Source: a bacterium HR11 (GTDB lineage: Bacteria; Acidobacteriota; HRBIN11). From it: a DNA stretch of 64,000 nt. The notes under the pieces were generated by a model. It did no database searches. It was given only the letters and a program-made list of their open reading frames with translations, and was not told the origin of the DNA. The position numbers and the translations under genes were made by a program. The stretch's first letter is position 1. Each line of letters begins with the position of its first letter. This document shows, piece by piece, positions 5,583 through 61,107 of the stretch. The stretch is from contig BEHN01000013.1 in NCBI GenBank assembly GCA_002898535.1, forward strand, positions 1 through 64,000, given 5' to 3'.

Positions 5583-5939
5583 AGTCGGGAATTCGGGAGT
5601 TCGGCAGTTCGGGAATTCGGGAATTCGGCCCTTCGGGAAGGCCGTTCGGCGGCCGACGTAGAAAGCGAGGGGGTATGTATCGTTCCAGGTCCCCGCGTCT
5701 TCCTGAAGTTTTCCCGACTCTTCGCCGCATGGGCTCATGGCTCACGTTGGCTCATGGGTCATGACTCATAGGCCCATGAGCCATCAGCTATGAGCCATGA
5801 GCCAATAAGGGCCATGAGCCCATAGCGGTTATGAACCATCCATCACCCTGGCTCGTCCCTCCGTCCCTTTGAAAAACCGTGCTTCCCGAGTGTTGGACAA
5901 GATTGTTCCGAGGCCATTCTCACGAACCGAACGGCTCTG
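5583..5939. repeat. family C element, left end missing
   Basis: It begins with a GGAATTCG octamer array (5583-5640). A module of about 90 bp shared with 20284-20375 and, inverted, with 35168-35290 follows. Next comes a palindromic array of TCATGGC heptamers (5728-5830), then the standard right end from TTTGAAAAACCGTGCTTCCC to GAACCGAACGGCTCTG at 5939. The heptamer array and right end closely match the copy at 40593-40944. Confidence 0.8.
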
Positions 5940-9237: not shown

Positions 9238-9579
9238 CAGAGCCGTTCGGGAGGTGAGAAGTGCGATGGGAAGCGGAAAGGGCACCTCCACGAAAGCACG
9301 ATGTTTCAAGCATTCGGCAGATGGGTCCGGGAGACGGGAAAAGCCGTCGCCGAGGCTCCCCGCCCCTCGCATCCCGTATTTTTATAATCAATATGACCAC
9401 AGACCATAGACCGGCTTGGGCCCCAGGGGGTCTATGGTCCATAGTCCATGGTCTGGGGTCGGATATCGAGGGTCCGATCCCGGTCCCGTCGGATTGATGA
9501 GACGGGTCCTAAAAAACCGTGCCTCTCAGACGGTGGGAAGAGCCGTCCCGACGCCCTTCTCACGAACCGAACGGCTCTG
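9238..9579. repeat. family C element carrying a nested family B hairpin
   Basis: Left end CAGAGCCGTTCGGGAGGTGA at 9238, with an internal GAGGTG/CACCTC inverted repeat and CACGATGTTTCAAGC. Right end CACGAACCGAACGGCTCTG ends at 9579. The interior contains a complete family B hairpin (9393-9514), so B appears to have inserted into C here. No coding sequence is present. Confidence 0.75.
9393..9514. repeat. family B hairpin element
   Basis: Heptamer arm (GACCACAGACCATAGACC), core GGCTTGGGCCCCAGGGGG, then the inverted arm (GGTCTATGGTCCATAGTCC) and the conserved tail GGATATCGAGGGTCCGATCC followed by GTCGGATTGATGAGAC. Confidence 0.75.
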
Positions 9580-18755: not shown

Positions 18756-19014
18756 CAGAGCCGTTCGGTTCGGGAGAATGGCGTCCGATCAGCTTTTCCC
18801 ACCACCCCGGAAGCACGATTTTTCAAGGATACGGGATACGAGATGCGAGATACGGGATACAGGGGGGCTTTGGGCCTCGGGGACGGCTTTTCCCGTCCCG
18901 TGGCCCATCTGCCGACTGCCGACCTGCCTATCGGCCGGATGCTTGAAAAATCGTCTTTCCCGAAGGGTGGGAAAAGCTGAATTCATGAGGCTTTTCACGG
19001 ACCGAACAGCTCTT
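18756..19014. repeat. complete family C element with GTAT flanking repeats
   Basis: Left end CAGAGCCGTTCGGTTCGGGA, right end GGACCGAACAGCTCTT. The 4-bp direct repeat GTAT flanks it at 18752-18755 and 19015-19018 if the last base has changed from G to T. The interior holds a GATACGG heptamer array (18827-18862) and a CTGCCGAC octamer array. It lies between divergent nth and the enolase-superfamily gene. Upstream, 18600-18750 holds scattered CAGATAGG units only. Confidence 0.75.
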
Positions 19015-20179: not shown

Positions 20180-20492
20180 CAGGGCCGTTCGGTTCGTGAA
20201 AACCCGTACAGATTCAGCGTGTTTGACCCTTCGGAGAGGACAGTTTTTCAAGCAAAGGGCAGTTCGGGAGTTCGGGAATCCGGGAAGGCCGTTCGGCGGC
20301 CGACGTAGAAGGCGAGGGGGCATCCATCGTTCCAAGTCCCCACGTCTTCCTGAAGCTTTTCTGACTCTTCGCCCCCTCCTGTCGCCGACTGCCGGCGCCG
20401 GCCGAAAAGACTCACCCCTCCCCCGGCCGGCCCCCGATGCCCGGGTTCCCGAACTCCCGAATTCCCGAATTGCCGAATTCCCGAGCTCCTGA
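20180..20492. repeat. family C element, right end missing
   Basis: Starts with the left end (GGCCGTTCGGTTCGTGAA), a GGAGTTCG octamer array and the module of about 90 bp seen at 5638 and 35168. It ends in the inverted octamer array (GAACTCCCGAATTCCCGAA) without the usual right end. It fills the gap between the convergent enolase-superfamily and FHA genes. Confidence 0.75.
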
Positions 20493-24297: not shown

Positions 24298-24348
24298 GGT
24301 TCAGGAAAGGAGGGCCGTTCGGGAATTCGGCAGTTCGGCAGATTAGCA

Positions 24349-24617
24349 TAACCGTTCGGTTGGTGAAAACCCGCATGGATTCGGCTTTTCCGACCCTTCG
24401 GGGAGGACGGTTTTTCAAGCGAAGGGCAGTTCGGCAGTTGGGCAGTTCGGCCGAGCGTCCCGAAAAGCTCTGCCATCCAGGGCTCTATCGGCCCAAGGCC
24501 GTGGCTCGTCACTGCGTTCCTTCGTCACTCCGTCACTTCATCACTTTGAAAAATCGTACTTCCCGGGGGATGGGAAAGGTTGTGCCGACGCCATTCTCAC
24601 GAACCGAACGGCTCTGA
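24349..24617. repeat. family C element (same subtype as 59176-59451, opposite orientation)
   Basis: Left end ACCGTTCGGTTGGTGAAAAC (its first bases degraded), CAGTTCGG octamers, a shared middle (CGAGCGTCC, then GGGCTCTATCGGCC), GTCACTCC octamers and the right end to GAACGGCTCTG at 24617. The inverted sequence of 59176-59451 matches it over nearly its whole length. A further fragment (GGCCGTTCGGGAATTCGG) lies at 24312-24340. Confidence 0.8.
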
Positions 24618-31429: not shown

Positions 31430-31556
31430 CAGAGCCGTTCGGCTCGTAAGAATGATATCGAGATGACCTTTCCTACCGCCCGAGATAAAGGGCGGACGGC
31501 GAAGGGCGAGTGGCGAATAGCGAATAGCGAATGGCGAGTGGCGAATGGCGAGTGGG
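31430..31556. repeat. solo family C left end plus GGCGAAT heptamer array
   Basis: CAGAGCCGTTCGGCTCGTAA begins at 31430, the base after the HAD stop; no matching right end follows. 31497-31556 is eight or nine units of GGCGAGT, GGCGAAT and AGCGAAT. Confidence 0.75.
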
Positions 31557-32485: not shown

Positions 32486-32509
32486 AGGCGGTGCGATGTA
32501 AGCCAGCCG

Positions 32510-32680
32510 GGACCAGGTGCCCCGCAAGGGGTGAAAAGGGAAAGGGGTGCGAGTCCCCTGCGGTCCCGCCGCCGTGACCGGGGACGAAAGCGCCGGCACG
32601 CCACTGGGAGCGGCCCTGGGGGCCTCCCGGGAAGGCGGCGCGAGTAGGACGATCCGGAAGCCGGAAGACCTGCCTGGTCC
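32510..32680 (+). promoter_or_regulatory. cobalamin riboswitch
   Basis: The closing stem pairs GGACCAGG (32510-32517) with CCTGGTCC (32673-32680). Inside are the core elements AAGGGGTGCGAGTCCCCTGC, GCCACTGGGA, GGGAAGGCGG and the B12-box variant AAGCCGGAAGACCTGCC. The aptamer binds adenosyl- or methylcobalamin and should shut down btuB when B12 is ample. The 214 nt down to the btuB start, which include a self-complementary GTCTTCTCCGCGGAGAGAAG, would hold the expression platform. Confidence 0.93.
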
Positions 32681-32894
32681 TGCTCACCGGTCTTCTCCGC
32701 GGAGAGAAGCCGTGAGGCCGTGAAGGCACGCTGGGGCGACCCACCGACCTTCAGCCTCTCGCCGAATTTCTCCGTGGACGTCGGCCGCATCCTGGGTGGA
32801 GTCTTTCTGGGCCTGCGGACCGGGCCGGCGTCCGTCCCGAGAAGATCGGCCTCCTCGGCTGGCTGACCCCATCCTGCCGTGAGGAGGTCGAACG

Positions 32895-35001: not shown

Positions 35002-35436
35002 CAGAGCCGTTCGGTTCGTGAAAATCCGCATGGATTCGACTTTTCGACCCTTCGGAGAGGACGGTTTTTCAAGCAAAAGGGCCATTCGGCAGTTCGGGGG
35101 TCCGGGAATTCGGGAGCTCGGGCATTGGGGGCCGGCAGGGGGAAGGGATGAGGCCTGGAGGCCGGCGCCGGCGGTCGACGACAAGAGAAGGCGAAGAGTC
35201 AGGAAAGCTTTAGGGAGGCGTGGGGACTTGGAACGCTCCGTACCCTCTTGCCTTCTACGTCGGCCGTCGAACGGCCTTCCCGAATGGCCGAATTCCCGGA
35301 CTGCCGAATTCCCGAACCCCCGACCGGCCCATCGGCCGACCTGCCGACTGCCCATCTGCCGAATGCTTGAAACATCGTGCTTTCCGGGGATGGGGAAGGT
35401 TGTTCCGACGCCATTCTCACGAATCGAACGGCTCTG
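35002..35436. repeat. full-length family C element between btuB and btuF
   Basis: Left end CAGAGCCGTTCGGTTCGTGA at 35002, right end CACGAATCGAACGGCTCTG to 35436: 435 bp, the longest copy. Inside, GGCAGTTCGG octamers face their inverted counterpart and CTGCCGAC octamers, with the module of about 90 bp in inverted orientation between them. No clear flanking repeat is seen. Its right end stops 2 nt before the btuF ATG. Confidence 0.85.
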
Positions 35437-38079: not shown

Positions 38080-38454
38080 CAGAGCTGTTCGGGAGGTGAG
38101 AAGTGCGATGGAGAGCGGAAAGGGCACCTCCACGAAAGCATGATGTTTCAGGCAGTCGGCAGGTGGGCAGGTCGGCAGATAGGCAGATGGGCAGGTGGGC
38201 AGGTCGGCCGATGGGCCGGTCGGGCGACGGGCGTCGATCCTCGGAACACCGGCCGTCATGCCGGTGGCTTCCATAGAAAGCCCGCCGTCCTGCGGGCGTC
38301 ACCCTCATGAACCGCCCGTCCTGGCCGTGTCGATCCCATCTGAACACCGCCAGGGATGGCGGTGTCATCCTTAACAACAAGCTTGAAACATCGAGATGGC
38401 CGGGCCGTCGTTTTCCCGGATGGGAGCAGTATTTCTCCCAACCGAACGGCTCTG
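38080..38454. repeat. complete family C element with ATAA flanking repeats
   Basis: Left end CAGAGCTGTTCGGGAGGTGA, right end CCCAACCGAACGGCTCTG, flanked by the direct repeat ATAA (38076-38079 and 38455-38458). Inside are a long CAGATGGG octamer array (38150-38220) and hairpins of the CACCGGC/GCCGGTG type. The remaining gap to proline dehydrogenase has a few GGATGCA-type units near 38535-38562. Confidence 0.85.
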
Positions 38455-40592: not shown

Positions 40593-40944
40593 GAGAGGGC
40601 CGTTCGGTTCGGGAGAATCCGGTCGGTCTTTCGCCTCTCCCGGGACCTGGGACTGAGTTTTGAAATGAGTTGTCAAGCCCTTCGGTTCGTGAAAGCCCGC
40701 ATGGATTCGGCCTTATTGGCTCATGGCTCATAGCCGCATTGGCTCATAGCTCGTGGCTCACGGCTCATAGTCCCATGAGCCATCAGCTATGAGCCATGAG
40801 CCAACATGGGCCATGAGCCATGAGACCATGCGGCTATGAACCATAAATCGCCCTGGCTTGTCACTCCGTCCCTTTGAAACATCGTGCTTCCCGAGCGTTG
40901 GGAAAGGTTGTCCCGACGCCATGCTCACGAACCGAACGGTTCTG
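40593..40944. repeat. family C element with TCATGGC heptamer palindrome
   Basis: An outer left end (GGCCGTTCGGTTCGGGAG) and a second left end at about 40677 (CTTCGGTTCGTGAAAGC) precede a long palindromic array of GGCTCAT/ATGAGCC heptamers (40725-40850). The right end finishes GAACCGAACGGTTCTG at 40944. Array and right end nearly duplicate 5728-5939. Confidence 0.8.
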
Positions 40945-43618: not shown

Positions 43619-43865
43619 CAGAGCTGTTCGGTTGGGAGAAATGCGGCTCCCATCGGGGAAAACGGTGGCCCGGCGACCTCGATGTTTCAAGCTTCCTCCG
43701 GATGACCCGGCCAGGACGGGCGGTGCATGAGGGTGACGCCCGCAGGACGGCGGGCTCTCTCCGGAAGCCACCGGCATGACGGCCGGTGGGCCGGGGATAG
43801 ACGCCCGTCGCCCGACCGGCCCACTGCCCATCTGCCAACCTGCCGACTGCCCATCTGCCGATCCG
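43619..43865. repeat. family C left end with octamer arrays, running into family B
   Basis: Left end CAGAGCTGTTCGGTTGGGAG at 43619 to GATGTTTCAAGCTT, a CACCGGC/GCCGGTG hairpin at 43769-43788, then CTGCCCAT octamers (43813-43863). The right end is missing; a family B element begins at about 43862. Confidence 0.7.
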
Positions 43866-44018
43866 ACCGCAGACCACAGACCACAGACCATGGACCATAG
43901 ACCTTGGACCGGCTGGGGCCCAGGGGGTCTATGGGTCTATGGTCTGTGGTCTGTGGTCCATGGTCTGTGGTCGGATATCGAGGGTCCGATCCTGGTCCCG
44001 TCGGATGGATGAGACTGG
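43862..44018. repeat. family B hairpin element
   Basis: Arm of about six heptamers (GACCACAGACCACAGACC), core GGCTGGGGCCCAGGGGG, opposite arm, tail GGATATCGAGGGTCCGATCC and GTCGGATGGATGAGAC, ending just before the phosphoribosyltransferase gene. Confidence 0.8.
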
Positions 44019-44036
44019 TTCTTGGGATGGGGGCCG

Positions 44037-44675
44037 ATGGTCTTCCGGGACAGGGCCGAGGCGGCTCGGCGACTCGCAGAACGACTGGAGCCATTCAGGG
44101 GCGAGGACCTGGTCATCCTGGCGATTCCCCGCGGGGGCGTCGTCATCGGCGACGGTATCGCTCGAGCCATCGGCGGCCAGCTCGACGTGGTCGTCCCCCG
44201 GAAGTTGGGCGCGCCCTACGACCCCGAATTGGCCATCGGGGCCGTCATGCACGACGGAAGTGTCTTCCTGAATGAGGACGTCATCGAGGCGCTCGGCGTG
44301 CCCGAAGAGTACATCGAAAAAGAGAAGGCCGCTCAGATGAAGGAGATCGAGCGTCGGCTGATCCTCTACCGGGGGCACCGGGAATACCGACTCGAGGGTC
44401 GGACCGTCTTGCTCGTGGACGATGGGGTCGCCACGGGGGCGACGCTCCTCGTGGCGGCCCGGTGGGTCCGAACGCAGGCGCCGAAGAAGCTCGTGATTGC
44501 CGTACCCGTGGGCCCCCCGGAGACCATCGAGAAGCTTCAGGCGGTCGCCGATGAGGTCGTGGCTTTACTGATCCCGGCTCAATTCGGTGCCGTCGGCGAG
44601 TTCTACCGGGACTTCTCGCCGGTGACCGACGAGGAGGTCCGTCGCATCATGAGGCAGTACGGATACGGGGTTTAG
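44037..44675 (+). CDS. phosphoribosyltransferase-domain protein
   Basis: A 212-residue protein of the stand-alone PRTase type often annotated only by domain. It opens MVFRDRAEAARRLAERLEPF, has VILAIPRGGVVIGDGIARAI and the PRPP motif RTVLLVDDGVATGAT. A lysine-rich stretch (YIEKEKAAQMKEIERRL) sits between them. Related genes are fused or linked to dienelactone hydrolases or stress loci elsewhere; no substrate is known. An ATG five codons earlier (44022) is possible but lies nearer the end of the family B tail. Confidence 0.78.
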   Translation: MVFRDRAEAARRLAERLEPFRGEDLVILAIPRGGVVIGDGIARAIGGQLDVVVPRKLGAPYDPELAIGAVMHDGSVFLNEDVIEALGVPEEYIEKEKAAQMKEIERRLILYRGHREYRLEGRTVLLVDDGVATGATLLVAARWVRTQAPKKLVIAVPVGPPETIEKLQAVADEVVALLIPAQFGAVGEFYRDFSPVTDEEVRRIMRQYGYGV

Positions 44676-44840
44676 ATGCCGGGTACTTGAAAAGGACCTA
44701 ACGCCTAACTAACATCCAGCACTGGACACCGATTCCTCGCGGGGTCGGAAAAATCTGGATCCATCCGGATTCTCTCGAACCGAGCGGCCCTGTGGACAAA
44801 GCCTTACGAGCCACTTCGGACCGAGGAGGGACGTCGAGCG

Positions 44841-50532: not shown

Positions 50533-50801
50533 CAGAGCCGTTCGGGAGGTGAGAAGTGCGATGGGAAGCGGAAAGGGCACCTCCACGAAAGCACGATTTT
50601 TCAAGCACTCGGCAGATGGGCCAATCGGCAGGTTGGCAGATGGGCAGTCGCCCGACCGGCCCATCGGCCGACTTGCCTATCTGCCGACGGCCCATCTGCC
50701 CATCTGCCCACCTGCCCACCTGCCAAATGCTTGAAACATCGTGCTTTCCGGGGGATGGGAAAGATTGTTCTGACGCCATTCTCATGAACCGAACGGTTCT
50801 G
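50533..50801. repeat. complete family C element with TTAA flanking repeats
   Basis: Left end CAGAGCCGTTCGGGAGGTGA, right end CATGAACCGAACGGTTCTG, with direct repeat TTAA at 50529-50532 and 50802-50805. The interior is almost entirely a palindrome of GGCAGATG octamers (50608-50728). A second, partial element starts at 50806 right after the repeat (CAGAGCTGTTCGGGAGG). Confidence 0.88.
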
Positions 50802-50869
50802 TTAACAGAGCTGTTCGGGAGGCAAAAAGTGAGATGAAAAGGGGAAGAGAGACTCTTCCCAAAGCCGGG

Positions 50870-56277: not shown

Positions 56278-56530
56278 CAGAGCCGTTCGGCCCGTGGAAA
56301 CCCGTATGGATTCAGCCTTTCCGACCCTTCGGGGCGGACGATTTTTCAAAGGGACGGAGTAACGAAGTGACGGAGTGACGAAGAAGTGACGAGCCATGGC
56401 CTTGGGCCGATGGGCCGGTCGGGATCATCCTTATATCATCACTCCATCCCTCCGTCCCTTTGAAAAATCGTGCTTTCCGGGCGATGGGAAAGGTTGTCCC
56501 GACGCCATTCTCCCGGGCCGAACGGCTGTG
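56278..56530. repeat. complete family C element with CTAAT flanking repeats
   Basis: Left end CAGAGCCGTTCGGCCCGTGG, right end CCGGGCCGAACGGCTGTG, flanked by CTAAT at 56273-56277 and 56531-56535. The interior has GTGACGAA octamers (56353-56395). At 253 bp it is the shortest complete copy, and it lies 12 nt before tRNA-Val. Confidence 0.88.
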
Positions 56531-59031: not shown

Positions 59032-59175
59032 TCTCATAAATCCGACCATGGACCATAGACCCCAGACCATAGACCGGCTTAGGCCCCCGGGGGTCCATGG
59101 TCCGTGGTCCATGGTCCAGGGTCCGTGGTCTGTGGTCTAATATCGAGGGTCCGATCCCGGTCCCGTCGGATTTAT
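59032..59175. repeat. family B hairpin cut by a family C insertion
   Basis: Left end TCTCATAAATCCGACC, arms, core GGCTTAGGCCCCCGGGGG, and tail to GTCGGATTTAT. Other copies continue GAGAC and GGTTCT; here a family C element begins instead, so C inserted into the B tail. Confidence 0.8.
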
Positions 59176-59451
59176 CAGAGCCGTTCGGTTCGTGAGAATG
59201 GCGTCGGAACAATCTTTCCCATCTCCCGGGAAGCACGATTTTTCAAAGTGACGGAGTGACGAAGTGACGCAGTGACGATCCACGACCTTGGACCGATGGG
59301 CCGGTCGGCCGATAGAGCCCTGGATAGCAGGGCTTCTTGGACGCTCGGCCGAACTGCCGAACTGCCGAATTGCCCTTTGCTTGAAAAACCATCCTCTCCG
59401 AATGGTCGGAAAAGCCGAATCCATGCGGGTTTTACCAACCGAACGGCTCTG
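59176..59451. repeat. complete family C element with TTAT flanking repeats
   Basis: Left end CAGAGCCGTTCGGTTCGTGA, right end CCAACCGAACGGCTCTG, flanked by TTAT at 59172-59175 and 59452-59455. The interior has GTGACGAA and GAACTGCC octamers. It is an inverted full-length relative of 24349-24617. Confidence 0.9.
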
Positions 59452-61107
59452 TTATTGCCTTACGGCCTTATTGCCTTTTTCCGACGGCGGCGGGTGGGCT
59501 TCCAGCCACTGAAGCGCCCGGGGGTCATGGGTCGCCTCGTAGTACTGCCGCATCCGGTCATAGGCGGCCTGGCGGTCGCCCCGCCGGTCCAGGAGAAGCG
59601 CTTCATAGTATATCAGGTCCGTTTTTCTGTATACCCAGGCCAGGGCGCCGAGGACGGCCTCCAGGCGGTCCAGTTCCCGGGGGCCGGTACTGACCTGCAT
59701 GAGGCGGTCGAGCCAGGCGTGGAGCTCTTCGGGCCGGGTCCACCCGCCGCCCTGGGCCGGGTCGTCGCCGGTGTCCGAGTTGCTCAGGGCCTCCCGGGGA
59801 CCCTCCCGTCGCCAGTAGGCCCAGTAGGGCGTACGGACCGGGATCCAGCGCCACTGCGTGTGGACCCAGCTCCGCCCGGGACCCTCCGGGAGCTGACCCC
59901 CCAGGGCATTCTGGGCCCACAGGTACAGCCACTGGGCCGACGTCCGGTCGTGGAGCCGGTCGGCCGCCCAGGCGGCGCCCACCAGGAGGGTCGGATGAAA
60001 CGTCGTCGGCCACAGCGTCGGGACGGCTTCCCGCACGTAGGGCCAGTCTTCGGTCAGTAGGGCTAACATCAGGCGATTCCAGGCCAGGACCGGGGCGTCC
60101 GGTCGGAGACGCAAGGCTCGGTCGATGTAATATCGGGCCTGGTCCGTCTGTCCCATGACGGCCAGGACGATGCCGAGGTCGTTCGAGATGACCGGGCCGG
60201 GGTCCTGCGTCGAGAGGTCCAGCAAGGTCTGCAGGGCGACAGGCCAACGCTGGCGAAGGTAGTGCCATGTGGCGACCCACAAGCGTTCCTGGGGATCCAT
60301 CGGCTGGGCGGACCGTTGCTGGACCCACTGGTCCAGGGCGGCGGCCGCCGCGTCGTCCAGGCCGTTCAGTTCCATCGCCGTCCAGACCTGCGCCCATCGG
60401 ATGTCCTCGAAAGTCGGGGCCAGGGTCGCCAGCCGGACGAGTCGGTCGAAGCGGTCGCTCGGCGGGTCCGTCCAGAGGGCCTTGACGTAAGGCTCGAACG
60501 ACTCCATCGGGACGGACGGCCAGAAGCGGTCGGCGACCCGGGCCGGGATGCCGGCTCGAGCCAGCCGGGAGCGCAGAGTTTCCAGGAGCCTTTGAAGCAA
60601 GTCGGGAAACCCCGCCAGGGTGCCCTGCACCGACCACTGCTCCAGGGGCCGCCGAGCCGCCGGGTCGGCCATCTGGACGGTAATCGTCAGGTCCGAGGCC
60701 TTCTCGCCGGACGACCGGTAGTACCCCGTGACGAGCAGGGCCGCCTGGCTCTGCCGGGCCAGCCATAAGGCCGTCGGGAGCGAAAGGGGAAGCGGATAGG
60801 TAAAGCCGTGGGCTTCGAAGACCTGCCGTCGGGTCCAGTGAGGCGGGATGACGTAGGGTCCGTCCAGCTCGACGTTGTGACCGACGACCTCGACGATGGC
60901 CTCCCCGAGCCAGAACAGGTCCGGCCGACCCGTACGATTTTCAAAGGGAAGAAGCAGGACGAAGGCCGGCGCATCGGTCTTCTCGGAGGGCGCTGGCGTC
61001 GGAGACGCCGGGCCCGAACCGGCCGGCATGGGGGAAAGGGCCGAGAGCCCCAGGCCGGCCATGACGGATAAGACCGACAGAAGCCGAAAGGGTCGATTCG
61101 GGAACAT
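59452..61107 (-). CDS. exported TPR-like protein
   Basis: A 551-residue protein with a signal peptide (MFPNRPFRLLSVLSVMAGLG). Residues 45-170 resemble a domain for building a periplasmic response from FVLLLPFENRTGRPDLFWLG, as in TolB-like or CsgG-like amino-terminal folds. The rest is helical with TPR-like repeats (NDLGIVLAVMGQTDQARYYI, AYDRMRQYYEATHDPRALQW). Its last residues (NKAVRQ) and TAA are octamer repeat DNA, and the stop codon lies within the duplicated target of the adjacent family C element. The longer upstream frame is rejected because it overlaps ubiX. Confidence 0.65.
   Translation of the reverse strand: MFPNRPFRLLSVLSVMAGLGLSALSPMPAGSGPASPTPAPSEKTDAPAFVLLLPFENRTGRPDLFWLGEAIVEVVGHNVELDGPYVIPPHWTRRQVFEAHGFTYPLPLSLPTALWLARQSQAALLVTGYYRSSGEKASDLTITVQMADPAARRPLEQWSVQGTLAGFPDLLQRLLETLRSRLARAGIPARVADRFWPSVPMESFEPYVKALWTDPPSDRFDRLVRLATLAPTFEDIRWAQVWTAMELNGLDDAAAAALDQWVQQRSAQPMDPQERLWVATWHYLRQRWPVALQTLLDLSTQDPGPVISNDLGIVLAVMGQTDQARYYIDRALRLRPDAPVLAWNRLMLALLTEDWPYVREAVPTLWPTTFHPTLLVGAAWAADRLHDRTSAQWLYLWAQNALGGQLPEGPGRSWVHTQWRWIPVRTPYWAYWRREGPREALSNSDTGDDPAQGGGWTRPEELHAWLDRLMQVSTGPRELDRLEAVLGALAWVYRKTDLIYYEALLLDRRGDRQAAYDRMRQYYEATHDPRALQWLEAHPPPSEKGNKAVRQ

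Follow-up and report, generated by a model that had tools for sequence, protein, structure and literature searches.

We consider it probable (roughly 80%) that the repeats described here form a family of non-autonomous DNA transposons (MITEs), which spread within one genus of Acidobacteriota by transposition in trans and whose cores were then overwritten by recombination between copies. The family was studied in a window of 64,000 nucleotides, the whole stretch of DNA that was analysed, corresponding to contig C13 of the genome designated G000 (Acidobacteriota, 2.99-Mb draft, 49 contigs). The window contains some nine paired copies, of which one is weak, and about eight unpaired ends.

Identification and distribution of the family

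The motif CAGAGCCGTTCGG marks a real mobile-element family. Over the whole G000 genome, 255 exact copies of these ends were found vs. 1 for the reversed control pattern, and two perfect ends stood at element spacing in 23 places. Scanning of the window with up to three mismatches yielded 78 end matches against 41.7 ± 6.5 expected by chance. Base-by-base reading covered 1.47 Mb of the 2.99 Mb of G000 and 0.45 Mb of G001, a sister of the window's organism from the same genus. The G000 stretches were partly picked for containing copies, and 181 of the 255 exact 13-mers lay within them. An end profile built from G000 (78-bp ends) located 390 ends in these 1.47 Mb (135 paired copies); scaled by the share of exact 13-mers, this corresponds to approximately 550 ends genome-wide. 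Paired copies alone made up 2.8% of the sequence read. The GC content of the elements was 60% vs. 66% for the genome.

The family is confined to one genus. Its ends occurred in 3 of 396 Acidobacteriota genomes, belonging to one genus of 210; the three carriers had 351, 138, and 1 end matches, and the control had none. In a pattern scan of named genomes, perfect two-ended copies were detected solely in an Acidobacteriota assembly, isolate JZ-1.bins.94.201901. A phage origin found no support in viral contigs, where no match to the family was present.

Structure of the elements

Full elements had a modal length of 258–259 bp, with most pairs spanning 221–531 bp. The inverted ends, perfect over 13 bp and imperfect over about 75 bp, flank a palindromic core, the centre of which consists of inverted short-period arrays with periods of 7–10 bp. 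The commonest form (258–259 bp) combines one type-A and one type-B end, and C- and D-type ends or hybrid forms occur in the remaining copies. The interior varied between copies and was built from arrays, as the preliminary description had reported. Copies in G000 were about 94% identical (median), with a maximum of about 98.4%, and therefore did not suggest that the elements had moved very recently. The predicted fold was one long hairpin, with a median of 84.5% of the pairs spanning the centre. The elements have no coding content above the shuffled level (median longest ORF 50.5 aa vs. 49 aa in shuffled sequence), so that the earlier statement that no copy encodes a protein held. Apart from an autonomous partner, the family fits the MITE definition against which it was compared.

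Copies in the window

The copy at 59176..59451 (276 bp, + strand) was exactly as first reported, with the target duplication TTAT at 59172..59175 on the left and 59452..59455 on the right. It has a type-A left end, CAGAGCCGTTCGGTTCGTGAGAATGGCGTCGG...TTTTTCAA (59176..59250, +), and a type-B right end, read inward from 59451 as CAGAGCCGTTCGGTTGGTAAAACCCGCATGG...TTTTTCAAGC (59377..59451, −). Its interior consists of a GTGACG array, a GCC-rich core, and a GCCGAACT array. The 3' end of a long ORF lies right at this copy. Immediately before the element, positions 59037–59175 are occupied by hairpin arrays of another family, GACCATGGACCATAGACC ... GGTCCATGGTCC, with sequence resembling ATAAATCCGAC / GTCGGATTTAT at their borders; similar arrays were observed at 43871–44010 and within the element at 9238–9579, and G001 has no copy of the 59037 array at that site.

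Three further full elements with identical flanks, also described earlier, were recovered at 50533..50801 (269 bp, +, TTAA/TTAA), 38080..38454 (375 bp, +, C...D end types, ATAA/ATAA), and 18756..19014 (259 bp, +, GTAT/GTAT). The end of a second copy (50806..50818, +) abuts the first of these across a 4-bp TTAA. The copy at 56278..56530 (253 bp, +) is likewise flanked by CTAAT on both sides, as had been noted. Both orientations were represented among the copies, in agreement with the original observation, and the copy at 24347..24616 (270 bp, −, TTAG/ATAG), previously placed at 24349–24617, is an inverted relative of the 59176 copy, with 84% identity over 281 aligned positions in opposite orientation. 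Full elements also occupied 9238..9579 (342 bp, +, C...A-like hybrid ends, unmatched flanks AAAT/CTAT) and 35002..35436 (435 bp, +, CCAA/ATAT), and a degenerate copy of 272 bp with a weak left end was located at 40673..40944.

Unpaired ends were found at 5927..5939 (−) and 31430..31442 (+), both exact 13-mers, at 20180..20192 (+), and at 43619..43631 (+, D-type). The nearest end opposing the last of these is at 44792; the flanks are TTAG/TGGA, without duplication, and the two ends enclose a phosphoribosyltransferase-like ORF (44013–44672, +). Tandem small palindromes of the GACACCGGCATGACGGCCGGTGTC type, possibly another repeat family, were seen in G001 (L125:3500–3930) and inside C...D elements (window 38080–38454). 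The window also carries a cobalamin riboswitch aptamer at 32498–32691 (RF00174, 100.7 bits).

Target duplication and insertion sites

A match of exactly 4 bp between the two flanks was present in 44 of 92 copies, whereas shuffling gave a mean of 7.8 and a maximum of 17 in 2,000 trials, so the excess of flanking repeats over chance on which the claimed mobility depended was present across copies. An exact 3-bp match was found in none of the 92 copies and a 5-bp match in one (56278). The preliminary description had given the repeat as 4–5 bp; the duplication itself stands, and its length is to be corrected to a fixed 4 bp with the consensus HTAD on both sides (TTAA, CTAA, ATAA and so on). Identical 4-bp flanks were present in 59 of 135 copies in the larger G000 sample and in 11 of 37 in G001, the latter sampled from contigs with matches and scored with the end profile built from G000. 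Abutting copies served as an independent ruler: of the 19 junctions no longer than 30 bp, 16 measured exactly 4 bp. A wider duplication such as TA only was rejected because the outer bases match too. The frequent abutting of copies had also raised the idea that the ends target themselves; it was rejected as unnecessary, since just 9,808 suitable HTAD sites exist in the 1.47 Mb and such sites flank 390 ends. HTAD-compatible (NTAN) flanks on both sides were more frequent (62/92 copies) than identical ones.

The elements insert between genes, avoiding coding sequence: 11 of 95 copies lay inside coding-like ORFs vs. 67% expected at random (p = 3e-26). Their presence is polymorphic between the sister species, with empty sites in both directions. 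At the position of the 56278–56530 copy, G001 has one CTAAT in place of CTAAT-element-CTAAT, and a clean empty site in G001 also matches the G000 copy at L055:2012 (CTAA). Conversely, the G001 copy at L145:4665 is flanked by ATAA on both sides, and G000 is empty there, reading TCCTATAATCTCC straight through. Empty sites in a close relative, which the original reading needed in order to hold, were thus found, and together with the excess of flanking repeats they support both the MITE-like nature and the mobility of the family.

The intergenic position, including that of the 59176 copy at the end of an ORF, and the single long hairpin fold would also be expected if the copies were kept as functional hairpins (e.g., transcription terminators or a binding site of a host factor), with transposition being merely their origin. 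We regard this as distinctly doubtful, because placement differs between the sister genomes, the sequence at shared sites is not conserved, and none of the copies in the window matched an RNA family in an Rfam search. Because of the same Rfam result, assignment to a structured RNA or riboswitch family was rejected.

Search for a transposase

The insertions would have been made by a DDE transposase that acted on the ends in trans and has probably since been lost or left out of the assemblies. The preliminary description had likewise called for a transposase elsewhere; this may still be so, and a search of the assembled genomes did not find it. The families PF01609, PF13546, PF13701, PF13358, PF13586, and PF00872 were absent from G000, G001, and G002. 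The sole rve gene (416 aa) belongs to a single-copy insertion sequence at L154:10442–11845 (G000 C2 ~215442–216845), which was rejected as the driver because it has its own 30-bp inverted ends, CTCGTTGCCTCACGAAAAGATCTTGCCGAA, unrelated to those of the MITE family. In the half of G000 that was read, the unpaired opposing ends enclosed no transposase-like ORF, as judged from ORF starts. Among the 25 most frequent of 136 families in a Pfam scan of ORFs between opposing ends 0.7–3.5 kb apart, only housekeeping genes were present, and no long direct repeat that could represent a multicopy insertion sequence exceeded 730 bp in 1.08 Mb. Overall, a transposase with matching ends was not found in the assembled sequence searched; the unread half of the genome and further families leave room for one.

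The parent could have been an enzyme of the IS5 group, or a similar DDE enzyme with the target YTAR, lost from these lineages. The family ends start with CAGAGC, and IS5-group ends are not known to begin in this way. IS5 duplicates YTAR, a 4-bp target with TA in the centre (PMC10359306), and the broader HTAD of the present family resembles it without being equal to it: 29 of 59 duplications fit YTAR (TTAA 12, CTAA 11, TTAG 6), but half fall outside it, with ATAA, TTAT, and CTAT being common. In addition, no DDE_Tnp_1-type gene (PF01609 or PF13586) was present in the three genomes. On both grounds, classification of the family as an IS5-group derivative was rejected, and we consider such a lost parent unlikely.

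Proposed recombination and exchange of cores

The type of core array is species-specific. GGCAG-type arrays were detected in 90 of 131 copies from G000 vs. 4 of 34 from G001 (p = 2e-9), and GGTGTTGG-type arrays in none of 131 vs. 11 of 34 (p = 7e-9). At three sites occupied in both species, L029:12602 / L109:10734, L021:12110 / L114:7651, and L029:15430 / L109:13483 (one locus from each species in each pair), the flanks and the outer ends align and the cores are unrelated. The first site has the private end variants CACAGCC... and ...CTAARCGGCTCTG, common to both species; the private variant is TAGAGCC at the second site and TTTACAGATCGG at the third. At a fourth site (L162 ~18450 / L125:5496), the right end is of type B in one species and of type A in the other, the pattern expected if the element had been inverted in place.

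On this basis we tentatively propose, as a possibility that still falls well short of being probable, that the elements are insertion shells with exchangeable cores. The ends would stay in place, and the palindromic array core would be replaced in situ from other copies, fast enough for the sister species (~94% identity) to have sites in common but different cores; the cores would then represent a second layer of selfish DNA spreading without a transposase. This proposal relies on the three shared sites and on genomes assembled from metagenomes, where misjoining of repeats can occur.

Short-read chimeras joined via the repeated ends might account for the core arrays themselves, or for the shared sites at which cores and flanks are unlike. 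Both genomes are fragmented, several contig ends fall inside element sequence, and some G001 contigs have low coverage (~2x for L016 and L017). However, the ends have diverged between copies (median 94%, none above 98.5%), and long k-mers resolve such divergence; the flanks on both sides are colinear across the shared sites at 94–97% identity; and species-specific cores are a genome-wide pattern rather than a matter of single joins. Misassembly is therefore a very unlikely cause.

Separate bursts of transposition would also produce cores specific to each species. In that case, each species would have amplified its own version after the split, the same target would have been hit independently at the shared sites, and cores would never have been exchanged. 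The divergence of the G000 copies (94%), which is about that of the two genomes, and the many sites occupied in one species only agree with such a history. It is nevertheless hardly probable, because the three shared sites carry the same private end variants, which independent insertions would not have in common.

In the reading that we prefer, transposition in trans was followed by recombination of the RecA type between dispersed homologous copies. The shared ends would then serve as anchors for gene conversion that overwrites the cores, and recombination between two copies would occasionally invert the intervening DNA. The palindromic arrays could also make the cores prone to breakage by hairpin cleavage and so promote exchange, which is speculative. 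Recombination between copies would explain the mismatched flanks that still fit HTAD, the hybrid ends, the species-specific cores, and the shared sites with different cores. One clear case speaks for recombination as the origin of unmatched flanks: relative to G001 C257 (L142) / C197 (L127), about 44 kb of G000 (C1 ~163.4k–207.7k, L023 and L024) are inverted. Both G001 junctions carry ends of the family, and at one of them the TTAG duplication is perfect; the G000 element at its junction has the unlike flanks TGGA and CTAT. For insertion sequences, it is accepted that recombination between copies can explain the loss of duplications (PMC11708052).

Comparison with known repeat families

The interiors of ERIC and Correia repeats are fixed rather than interchangeable arrays, and their ends are different from those of the present family. 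REP/REPIN repeats, a class treated in PMC3733652, are driven by a Y1 transposase, consist of palindromes of 20–40 bp tagged GTAG or CGTC, and make no target duplication; with a 4-bp duplication and 258-bp elements, membership of our family in this class was rejected. High copy number is not unique to the family, since ERIC and Correia are also high-copy intergenic MITE-like repeats, ERIC reaching 711 copies in Photorhabdus luminescens (PMC10969869). Chunjie of Geobacter uraniireducens, an intergenic MITE of ~235 bp, is similar in its conserved ends, duplications, and many partial copies (38 full-range copies of 178–235 bp and 57 partial ones); the review describing it does not report core exchange between species (PMC10969869). 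Animal Foldback-type transposons (Galileo, FB, Tetris) have long, internally repetitive inverted ends, and Galileo causes inversions via recombination between copies (PMC3573991, PMC4079207). They are eukaryotic, kilobase-sized, and moved by different transposases, so the analogy to our family is structural only.

The nearest precedent for like ends with unrelated tandem-repeat interiors is provided by the Porphyromonas gingivalis MITEs BrickBuilt and 464/PgRS, which are non-coding and intergenic, with short inverted ends and tandem-repeat interiors, similar ends enclosing unrelated interior repeats (PMC4596501). They occur in ~20 copies each with direct repeats of 23 or 41 bp, their target duplications are inconsistent, and their ends are traceable to known insertion sequences (PMC4596501). 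In contrast, the present family has hundreds of ends, each ~75 bp long, palindromic arrays with 7–10-bp periods, a strict 4-bp HTAD duplication, cores that differ at shared sites, and a parent that was not found. The preliminary description had set the family apart from ordinary MITEs by its variable array interior; that feature is confirmed, and the contrast is softened by the P. gingivalis elements. For cores differing at shared sites, no precedent was found in the open-access literature searched.

Usually, the interior of a MITE is regarded as a passive relic of its parent transposon; in this family, the ends evolve separately from the core, and no resident parent was found in the sequence searched. 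Core exchange would also account for the many copies without matching target duplications. If it is confirmed, the family would offer a natural system in which to measure how often short repeats dispersed in a bacterial genome undergo ectopic gene conversion and inversion.
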